From Candidatus Gastranaerophilales bacterium (GTDB lineage: Bacteria > Cyanobacteriota > Vampirovibrionia > Gastranaerophilales > Gastranaerophilaceae), in the NCBI GenBank assembly GCA_944324305.1, contig CALUVV010000007.1, positions 62,001 through 126,000 on the forward strand: a stretch of 64,000 bases of DNA, written 5' to 3'. The first letter of the stretch is position 1; each line of letters opens with the position of its first letter. Positions 3,303 through 5,445 of this stretch are shown here, in pieces. The position numbers and the translations under genes were made by a program. The notes beneath the pieces were generated by a model, which saw only the letters and a list, made by a program, of their open reading frames with translations, had not been told where the DNA came from and ran no database searches.

Positions 3303-3899
3303 ATGAAAATTAATAATGTTCAATCTTACAATTATAATACAATGAATTGTGATTGCAATAAAAAGAAAAGTAATCCTGCGTTTTCTGCAAGAATTCCTGC
3401 ACAAACAGAACGAAAAATTTTAACCGAAGCGGTTGAAAACGGCTCGGAATTTCTAGCATCAGTAAGAGCACAGTTAGCAAATATTCGTAAATGGGGCAAA
3501 TCTGATACTACATTAACTGAAGCTTTTGATTTAGACAACGGCAAAACAGCCCTCGGACTTGATAACAGTTCAATTTCAACAATGTACGGTGCAAACCTTC
3601 CGAATAAAACTTCTTTGCTTGATACAGTTATGTCATTGAAAGAAAAAGATATTATAAAAGCGGAAAAAGACTTGCAACAAATCGTTGATGATAATAAAAC
3701 TGATTTAATTATTAAGGCTCTGAACGATGATAAATTAATGAATAAAATCGTTCATAAATCTAACCCATCAGATGAAGAATTAGCGGAAGCAATTGATAAA
3801 CTTTCCGAAGAACGTATTACCGAACTGCGTTTCGGTCTTGACGAACCGTCAAAATATTCATCAAATGATGATATAATTCATTTTGATTTTTCAGCTTAA
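3303..3899 (+). CDS. Hypothetical protein with N-terminal FSA tag
   Basis: 198-aa protein I do not recognise. The first ~25 residues are Asn/Tyr-rich and likely disordered (MKINNVQSYNYN, then CDC and KKK), followed by NPAFSAR. This resembles the short aromatic-S/T/K-G/A tag seen near the N-terminus of several unrelated proteins in this window. The rest is predicted helical and acidic, with no membrane segment or catalytic motif. The start is firm: AAAGGAG at 3291-3297 lies 5 nt before the ATG, and an extended -10 (TGATATAAT, hexamer 3276-3281) lies just upstream. It appears to be transcribed alone. Confidence 0.8.
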   Translation: MKINNVQSYNYNTMNCDCNKKKSNPAFSARIPAQTERKILTEAVENGSEFLASVRAQLANIRKWGKSDTTLTEAFDLDNGKTALGLDNSSISTMYGANLPNKTSLLDTVMSLKEKDIIKAEKDLQQIVDDNKTDLIIKALNDDKLMNKIVHKSNPSDEELAEAIDKLSEERITELRFGLDEPSKYSSNDDIIHFDFSA

Positions 3900-3907
3900 A
3901 TAAAAGC

Positions 3908-3935
3908 TTGCAAAATTTTTATTTAACGGTAGAAT
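3908..3935 (+). promoter_or_regulatory. Promoter upstream of the His-rich leader peptide
   Basis: TTGCAA at 3908-3913, a 16-nt spacer and TAGAAT at 3930-3935 form a reasonable vegetative promoter. The expected transcript would start near 3942, just before the AGGGA ribosome binding site of the 3955 leader ORF. It would carry a ~200-nt 5' UTR to the membrane-protein gene at 4139. Inferred from consensus similarity only. Confidence 0.45.
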
Positions 3936-3954
3936 TATTCTGTAGGGAAAAATA

Positions 3955-4020
3955 ATGATTAAATTCAATTCTTTAAAATTGCATCATACACATCATCATA
4001 GCGGCCTTGGAAGGCTATGA
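3955..4020 (+). CDS. Putative 21-codon histidine-rich leader peptide
   Basis: A short ORF with a plausible ribosome binding site (AGGGA at 3944-3948) starts at ATG 3955 and ends at TGA 4018-4020. It encodes 21 residues, including HHTHHHS, that is five His codons (all CAT) within six codons at 3985-4002. The layout is reminiscent of amino-acid-sensing leader peptides such as hisL. The end of the ORF overlaps the 5' arm of a 14-bp stem (4005-4018), so a translating or stalled ribosome would open that stem. The gene downstream is not a histidine-biosynthesis gene, so what is sensed is unknown. Translation is inferred, not shown. Confidence 0.5.
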   Translation: MIKFNSLKLHHTHHHSGLGRL

Positions 4021-4128
4021 ATTGATGTTTTACGCTTTTAAAGAATAAAAAAAATATAATTCAATTCTTATAAAATAGTCTTCCAAGGAACCCGAAAAGC
4101 GTTTGGCAGACTATATTAAGAATTGGAG
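4005..4128 (+). promoter_or_regulatory. Candidate structured 5' UTR (pseudoknot and Shine-Dalgarno-masking helix)
   Basis: Three sets of complementary segments are visible. Stem A is CCTTGGAAGGCTAT (4005-4018) with 4075-4088, 14 bp with one G-U. Strand ACGCTTTT (4032-4039), inside the loop of A, is complementary to AAAAGCGT (4095-4102), outside it; this gives a pseudoknot topology. CAATTCTTA (4062-4070) is complementary to TAAGAATTG (4117-4125), which overlaps the GGAG (4125-4128) of the 4139 gene. It is also complementary, exclusively of the former, to AAGAAT at 4041-4046. Together with the leader ORF this suggests a translation-coupled switch. Pairing was judged by eye, with no energy calculation. 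Confidence 0.5.
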
Positions 4129-4138
4129 ATTAATAGAA

Positions 4139-5413
4139 ATGACAATAACAAATATAATTTCGGCTATCGGAAATAATAGCAGTGTATACCCCTTAATAGT
4201 ACGTGATTGCGGGATTGAAGTCCCTTCAAAAATTCTTTTGACTTACAATCAGAATAAAAAAGAGTCAAAGGGGATTGCTTATTTAGCTGCAAGAGAACGT
4301 TTCCTGGACGAGTATGCGACATCTGCTGTATGGCTCGGCGGTATTCCTCTTGTCGGCTGGCTTGCAAATAAGTATATTAAAACAAGAGGCCTTAACCCTG
4401 ATGTTAATTTGAAACTCTTCAAGGAAGAACAGAATATTCAAGGTATTGATTACAATATTAAAAAGTTTAAGGATTTGGCTCCGGATGCCGTAAAAGACTT
4501 AATTAAAGCAAAAGAAAATAAAAAACTTTATGAAAAACTGCTCGCAGGAAAATTTCTTGCATCTACGACAATTCCTATTCTTTTTATGGGGTTTATACTG
4601 CCGAAATTAATCTTTGCATCTTCTGCAAAAAAAATTGAGAAGCTTAGAGCTAAAGAAGCGGAAAAGCAAAAAAACGTACAAAATGTGAGCTTTTTACAAA
4701 AAGATAGATTTTATAAATCAAAAGATATTAATTTTACGGGTAACTGGGTTACCAGAGCTGCTAATTTTTCGGCACAGGATAAAATGGCTGTAACTGACGG
4801 CGGTTATGCAGTCGGTCGTGTTGCAACTGCGCGTAATAAAAATGAACGCTATGATTTGGCTTTCAAAATGACAGGTATGATGTTTTTAAACTTTGTTGCG
4901 CCAAAATGGATTGAAAAGGGGTTAAATAAAATAACAGGTGTTGAACTCGATCCGCTCATGCTTGCAGATGAAAACTTTGCAAAACAGATTAAAGAAGGAA
5001 ATCTTCAGCTTCCTGTTAACGATTCCGCCGAAGAACTTTTAAAATTTGTTGATAATATTGAAAATAAAGATACTATATTCATTAAATATGCTAAAAAGTT
5101 TGAAAAAGTTAAAATGCTTGATAACGGAATAAGAGACCCGAGAGAGTATGTTAATATTAAAAACCTTGCTAAATTCAGAAATGATATTGAGACATTTGCT
5201 TTTAAGGCAAAGAATGCGGATGATATGACTGCTTTTATAAGAAAGACTAAATTTGCGAAATCAGCAAATATATTGACAAATGTAGCTTTAAGCAGTTTTC
5301 TTCTTGCTTATGCTTTGCCAAAGGTACAATTTGCATTCAGAAAACTTGTAACCGGCTCTGATTTGGAACCCGGCCTGGCTCCCGCAGAAAAAATCGTTGA
5401 TAACAAAGCATAA
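4139..5413 (+). CDS. Hypothetical multi-pass membrane protein
   Basis: 424-aa protein of unknown function. I chose ATG 4139 because GGAG lies 10 nt upstream; an in-frame TTG at 4103 sits inside the foldable leader. Hydrophobic segments lie near residues 55-75 (WLGGIPLVGWLANKYI), 140-165 (TTIPILFMGFILPKLIF), 245-265 (MMFLNFVAPKW) and 380-405 (ALSSFLLAYALPKVQF), so it is probably in the inner membrane. Two repeats of the pattern 'small-ALPK/ILPK/VAPK' occur at the ends of these segments. An internal DINFTGNW matches the F-T-G tag otherwise found at N-termini here. It is followed by a strong terminator. It may be controlled by the His-rich leader upstream. Confidence 0.8.
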   Translation: MTITNIISAIGNNSSVYPLIVRDCGIEVPSKILLTYNQNKKESKGIAYLAARERFLDEYATSAVWLGGIPLVGWLANKYIKTRGLNPDVNLKLFKEEQNIQGIDYNIKKFKDLAPDAVKDLIKAKENKKLYEKLLAGKFLASTTIPILFMGFILPKLIFASSAKKIEKLRAKEAEKQKNVQNVSFLQKDRFYKSKDINFTGNWVTRAANFSAQDKMAVTDGGYAVGRVATARNKNERYDLAFKMTGMMFLNFVAPKWIEKGLNKITGVELDPLMLADENFAKQIKEGNLQLPVNDSAEELLKFVDNIENKDTIFIKYAKKFEKVKMLDNGIRDPREYVNIKNLAKFRNDIETFAFKAKNADDMTAFIRKTKFAKSANILTNVALSSFLLAYALPKVQFAFRKLVTGSDLEPGLAPAEKIVDNKA

Positions 5414-5445
5414 AAAAAGACCTCTTTTGAAGAGGTCTTTTTTTT
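5412..5445. terminator. Bidirectional rho-independent terminator
   Basis: A-run, stem GACCTCTT / AAGAGGTC with a 3-base loop, then a T-run of eight. It sits between two convergent genes and can serve both strands. Confidence 0.9.

Follow-up and report, generated by a model that had tools for sequence, protein, structure and literature searches.

The window, a 64,000-nt stretch from the 2.2-Mb, 99.98% complete genome of a member of the Gastranaerophilales, a lineage of non-photosynthetic gut bacteria related to cyanobacteria, carries at positions 4139–5413 a gene (start codon ATG at 4139) coding for a 424-aa protein of unassigned function; this gene and all features of its leader lie on the + strand. 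Structure prediction gave an all-helical protein (mean pLDDT 80, pTM 0.73) with long hydrophobic helices, suggesting that the product is a membrane protein. A terminator-like hairpin with a U-run was found in the sequence 3' of the gene (5418–5445), and since the following gene runs in the opposite direction, the 4139 gene is apparently alone on its transcript. Upstream lies a 21-codon leader ORF (MIKFNSLKLHHTHHHSGLGRL, 3955–4020, stop codon TGA at 4018–4020), which has counterparts in orthologues and is preceded by a Shine-Dalgarno-like AGGGA (3944–3948). In agreement with the original prediction, five of six consecutive codons in this ORF are CAT (CAT CAT ACA CAT CAT CAT, 3982–3999, encoding HHTHHH). 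A promoter-like site (TTGCAA, 16 nt, TAGAAT; 3908–3935) was assigned by consensus match; similar TTGCAA/TTGACA ... TAnnAT stretches are visible in many orthologous leaders, and the number of promoter-like sites found by the consensus scan was not above that in shuffled sequences. Upstream of the leader, the window contains a 198-aa ORF on the same strand (3303–3899) that has no Pfam match, and in many relatives this place is taken by an ORF whose N-terminus is similar but whose length varies.

Relatives and GTDB contigs supplied orthologues of the 4139 protein, and with them 86 distinct upstream regions. A clear His-rich leader ORF with 3–7 His codons was present in 85 of them (the ORF of L157 is doubtful), a count that on its own is biased upward as the scan picked the most His-rich ORF per region; the place of the ORF relative to the RNA arms described below is fixed among the orthologues and is unaffected by this selection. 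The leader peptides take forms such as LKLHHxHHHSxLxRL, LKLHLHHHINLKRL, QLHHNHQHSNPKGL and MFTPSVKRHHHNHHHCH, and their histidines are encoded by 365 CAT versus 23 CAC codons. The last His codon and arm A are separated by 8 nt in the median leader and at both quartiles, and the leader stop codon lies at a median of 13 nt inside arm A. Some leaders have just 3 His codons, which speaks against reading them as attenuators. In one sub-clade (L009–L011, L013, L020 and L024) the leader stop codon TGA is changed to TGG and the ORF extends as ..LWDWWCTL*, adding three Trp codons downstream of the His run; this could reflect either added sensing of Trp or a shift of the stop codon alone.

The leader RNA contains three arms that can pair in two ways. 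Arm A (4005–4025) consists of 4005–4018, complementary to 4075–4088, and of GAATTGA (4019–4025), complementary to the anti-Shine-Dalgarno (anti-SD) positions 4061–4067. Arm B (4061–4088), the partner of either A or C, comprises the anti-SD TCAATTCTTA (4061–4070) plus ATAGTCTTCCAAGG (4075–4088), and arm C (4108–4128) comprises AGACTAT (4108–4114) and TAAGAATTG (4117–4125), which runs into the Shine-Dalgarno GGAG (4125–4128). Helices A:B and B:C share arm B and are mutually exclusive. Two of these pairings had been proposed originally and were confirmed: the 14-bp stem 4005–4018/4075–4088 is perfect except for one G-U pair, and the 9-bp complementarity 4062–4070/4117–4125 is perfect, with the proposed sequestration of the Shine-Dalgarno borne out by the orthologous leaders, covariation and folding. 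Three parts are additional to those proposals, namely helix B:C proper (4075–4081/4108–4114), helix 1:2 (3968–3978/4036–4046 and 3990–4002/4014–4028, within 3968–4046), which includes the His codons, belongs to the MFE structure and would form when the leader is untranslated, and a Shine-Dalgarno mimic at 4019–4025 that binds the anti-SD. The mimic, GAATTGA, comes after the leader stop codon and repeats the Shine-Dalgarno-flanking GAATTGGA; in the ON fold, its partner is the anti-SD.

The region 3942–4145 has a predicted folding energy of −45.1 kcal/mol compared to a mean of −29.7 (sd 3.6) for shuffled sequences (z = −4.29), and none of 200 shuffles folded as well; taken alone, the OFF hairpin and the ON stem of the window gave z-scores of −4.82 and −4.72, respectively. 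Covariation was assessed on an alignment of 34 leaders built without reference to structure. For A:B together with the pseudoknot (see below), 91% of the cells were paired and changes on both sides were seen for 12 of 22 pairs, while for B:C these values were 90% and 9 of 16 pairs; in both cases, 0 of 500 shuffles were as good, and sliding the partners by 1–3 columns lowered the pairing to 28–56%. Helix 1:2 showed 80% paired cells, above the slid controls, with both-side changes not above those of shuffles (89 of 500). The pairing between GAATTGA and the anti-SD, of which 6–7 of the 7 pairs are kept in most of the 34 leaders, is too invariant for covariation. More distant leaders outside the alignment have the same two pairings with other letters, among them L124 (CCCTAAGGGG/CCTCTTAGGG with TAACCTCTTAG/CTAAGAGGTTA) and L171 (AGAGGTTGT/ACAACCTCT with ACAACCTC/GAGGTTGT). 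Because an automatic arm finder chose other or short helices in a minority of the 86 leaders, we do not claim that A:B and B:C are universal. Across the orthologous loci, both elements on which the prediction depended have been retained, the ORF being clear in 85 of 86 regions and the stems covarying.

The pseudoknot proposed earlier would join ACGCTTTT in the A:B loop (4032–4039) to AAAAGCGT in the B:C loop (4095–4102). Its 8-bp complementarity is indeed perfect, and the pseudoknot itself is moderately supported by the sequence comparisons: when taken alone, 73% of its cells were paired, weakly above column shuffles (8 to 9 of 500 as good in pairing and covariation score), and the best loop-loop helix in 40 leaders scored 13.1; shuffling the loops gave 9.9 (sd 0.3), and swapping them between species gave 12.0 (sd 0.4).

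To represent a translating ribosome, we used nested folding of the RNA that it leaves free, assuming that it covers 14 nt counted from the start of its A-site codon; the pseudoknot and co-transcriptional kinetics lie outside this model. For the window, B:C had a probability of 0.98, A:B of 0.00 and Shine-Dalgarno pairing of 0.70 in the absence of a ribosome, and nearly the same values were obtained with the ribosome at the stop codon (0.98, 0 and 0.69, respectively). With the ribosome at the first His codon, A:B reached 0.72 and Shine-Dalgarno pairing fell to 0.38, and at the second His codon the values were 0.98 and 0.28. The placement of the stop codon fits an attenuator, as by geometry and masked folding a terminating ribosome masks arm A and a stalled one leaves it free. 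Among 85 orthologues, A:B exceeded 0.5 in 51% with the ribosome at the second His codon, in 12% without a ribosome and in 0% with the ribosome at the stop codon. Two results of this folding count against an attenuator: in the window, a ribosome placed at the last His codon still yields B:C, and nearly half of the orthologues do not favor A:B even when the ribosome is at the second His codon.

The leader ORF, its His codons, the two exclusive helices, their spacing and the single copy per genome (see below) were established by comparing sequences and by computation, and we read them, with a probability of about 0.86, as a ribosome-mediated histidine attenuator that serves this one gene. The attenuator-like design noted originally is supported by the 86 orthologous leaders, by covariation and by folding with the ribosome at set positions. 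When charged tRNA-His is ample, the ribosome would read the leader to its stop codon (4018–4020) and cover arm A (4005–4018), leaving arm B to pair with arm C, so that the Shine-Dalgarno upstream of 4139 is hidden; where a relative still has the U-run, the same B:C hairpin would act as a transcription terminator. If the leader is untranslated, helices 1:2 and B:C would form and the gene would be off too. When histidine is short, depletion of charged tRNA-His would stall the ribosome on the His codons (3982–3999) and arm A would stay free to capture arm B over 14 bp, probably aided by the 8-bp pseudoknot, with GAATTGA (4019–4025) capturing the anti-SD. Formation of A:B would then release the Shine-Dalgarno, and the membrane protein would be made, presumably helping a histidine auxotroph to cope with the shortage.

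The leaders differ in how the OFF state is likely to act on expression. Arm C could be located in 49 leaders, and in 28 of these at least 6 U stand just after it; the terminator hairpin of one of the orthologues, L011, folds well (z = −5.5). In the window, arm C is followed by ATATTAA instead of a U-run, ATTAA (4115–4119) standing in place of the 6–10 U of relatives. A protein tree built from 30 orthologues places the window in an eight-row group (support 94/92) in which the U-run is weak in all eight, and another eight-row group has kept it in all. The state of the U-run was clustered on the tree, requiring 5 changes compared to 10.2 for shuffled labels (0 to 1 of 500 as low). Because its clade has lost the U-run, control in the window's species is probably translational, and the history suggested by these sequences is one in which a transcription attenuator retained Shine-Dalgarno sequestration in this clade while its U-run decayed. 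The original proposal of control at translation fits the window's species, but, with the terminator kept in many relatives, transcription attenuation is no less widespread than translational control. The preservation of 6–10 U after arm C in many relatives would also be expected if the element were a pure transcription attenuator in the window's species, with B:C terminating despite a degenerate U-run and the Shine-Dalgarno pairing being incidental. We consider this unlikely, if still worth some weight: ATATTAA replaces the U-run in the window, a terminator scan (loops of at most 8) found no terminator-like site there, and the U-run is weak in every one of the eight rows that form the window's clade, yet the anti-SD pairing is kept.

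The same RNA switch would also be served by any other cause of stalling at the same place, for example if the His-rich nascent peptide, rather than His codons in an empty A site, arrested the ribosome in response to a metabolite, a metal or a drug, and paralogues of the gene are indeed preceded by a different leader peptide (RRNSIIKANAPIVKLMNLIWGL), strongly conserved and resembling an arrest peptide. We regard arrest by the His-rich peptide as improbable, since outside of its histidines it varies in length, N-terminus and C-terminus, its conserved non-His residues coincide with the RNA arms, and the number and order of the His codons vary, as codon sensing predicts. That the peptide is a functional small protein (e.g. 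metal-binding, as His-rich peptides can be) with an RNA structure that is incidental or serves RNA stability is very hard to reconcile with the covariation of mutually exclusive helices, the fixed spacing from the last His codon to arm A, and a single copy that always precedes the same gene.

The histidine attenuator favored here belongs to a known class, and the variant is new in its lineage, its target, its architecture of pseudoknot and Shine-Dalgarno mimic, and the difference in output mode among orthologues. Amino-acid attenuator leaders have been described in Proteobacteria, Actinobacteria and Firmicutes (PMC9413887, PMC2965389, PMC1262725), and the His leaders among them, from Proteobacteria and Firmicutes, control his or hisS-family genes (PMC9413887, PMC2965389); our literature searches for attenuation leaders in Gastranaerophilales found no paper. 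With the hisL attenuator of the his operon of Escherichia coli and Salmonella (Rfam His_leader), the element shares a leader ORF containing consecutive His codons, alternative pairing of the 1:2, 2:3 and 3:4 type (1:2 being predicted here) and, on the proposed mechanism, expression upon histidine shortage, but it has no Rfam match, its target is an uncharacterized membrane protein instead of the his operon, its output in the window is probably translational, it has an additional, moderately supported pseudoknot, and its host is without key his biosynthesis genes. The His leaders of Firmicutes, known from the Bacillus cereus group, Peptostreptococcaceae and Erysipelotrichales (PMC9413887) and from hisS*/hisZ of bacilli (PMC2965389), were likewise predicted by comparison and combine a short leader containing 3–5 His codons with terminator/antiterminator alternatives; they control histidine biosynthesis or hisS-family genes, whereas lineage and target are different here. 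Attenuators in which an RBS sequester replaces the terminator (PMC9413887) resemble the window's leader in that the OFF hairpin hides the Shine-Dalgarno, but in our case both versions occur within one orthologous set, the U-run being weak throughout one clade. The pseudoknotted LEU element of actinobacterial leuA, whose leader contains Leu codons (PMC1262725), also has a codon-run leader ORF, a pseudoknot or alternative hairpin, and a Shine-Dalgarno that takes part in pairing. In contrast to our leader, where the His codons are in the predicted helix 1:2 and the Shine-Dalgarno pairs with a separate anti-SD strand, its Leu codons pair with the Shine-Dalgarno itself, and target and phylum differ. 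The present set adds a well-supported amino-acid attenuator in Gastranaerophilales, displays a terminator version and a Shine-Dalgarno-sequester version among orthologues, and points to histidine shortage as a functional lead for a widespread unannotated family of gut membrane proteins in apparent histidine non-producers.

Of 77 genomes searched with a covariance model of the leader, exactly 35 gave a match at E < 0.01, just upstream of the gene, and these are the 35 with an orthologue; the few further matches were weak or antisense to the same site. By this model, the leader occurs in one copy per genome, upstream of the 4139-type gene only, and both gene and leader are absent from five genomes of the genus. 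The model found no second copy in the window's genome, and none of its other HHxHH stretches or short His-rich ORFs serves as the leader ORF of a comparable attenuator. Searches against Rfam, including His_leader, T-box and amino-acid riboswitches, gave no match at the gathering score, and permissive thresholds returned chance matches below the cut-off.

HisG, HisB and HisD were not found in the window's own genome (99.98% complete), whereas each was recovered in 13 of 14 control genomes, which makes histidine auxotrophy very probable for this organism. HisD was absent from all 33 genomes searched across its genus, and many bacteria of the group seem unable to make histidine. Within the family, HisD was absent in 9 of the 11 genera with a 4139-type gene versus 8 of the 15 genera without it, a difference that is not significant (one-sided Fisher p about 0.14) and therefore a trend only; a strict coupling of the gene to hisD loss was rejected on these counts. 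Close relatives that bear a name are MAGs of Candidatus Gastranaerophilales or Melainabacteria. One further record, named Fusobacterium sp. CAG:439 (L094), contains a protein 94% identical to the 4139 protein and, given this identity, appears to be a misnamed Gastranaerophilales genome.

Comparisons of the 4139 protein with Pfam, NCBIfam, a PDB sequence profile, Foldseek and VIA-align returned nothing reliable; the VIA-align matches, with Z of 5.7 or less, were dismissed as being at the level of common helical arrangements. The original description of the target as unrelated to known his genes is borne out. A link to histidine supply is plausible because of the auxotrophy of the host, but the protein resembles no known transporter, and the suggestion that it is a histidine-linked transporter is a guess. 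The gene mostly stands alone and its neighbors vary among relatives, and the neighborhood was rejected as a clue to function. In some genera (L063, L150 and L169), the gene adjoins an opposite-strand ORF that by eye resembles threonyl-tRNA synthetase at its N-terminus. More distant paralogues of the gene are found in most genomes that carry it. It is conceivable, as a speculative proposal, that this membrane-protein family of the Gastranaerophilales forms a response to translation shortage, each paralogue having its own stalling leader (the His attenuator or the arrest-type peptide with RRNSIIKANAPIVKLMNLIWGL), and that the member under His control safeguards the supply of histidine or peptides to these auxotrophic gut relatives of cyanobacteria. 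Upstream of the paralogues L077 (G000:C7:12800–14700), L069–L076 and L204–L223, a highly conserved mini-ORF, M..(I/L)RRNSIIKANAPIVKLMNLIWGL*, lies about 30–70 nt before the gene and has no codon run; it may be a nascent-peptide arrest leader. Homologues at the level of the order have a related ...NLxWGL* ORF.
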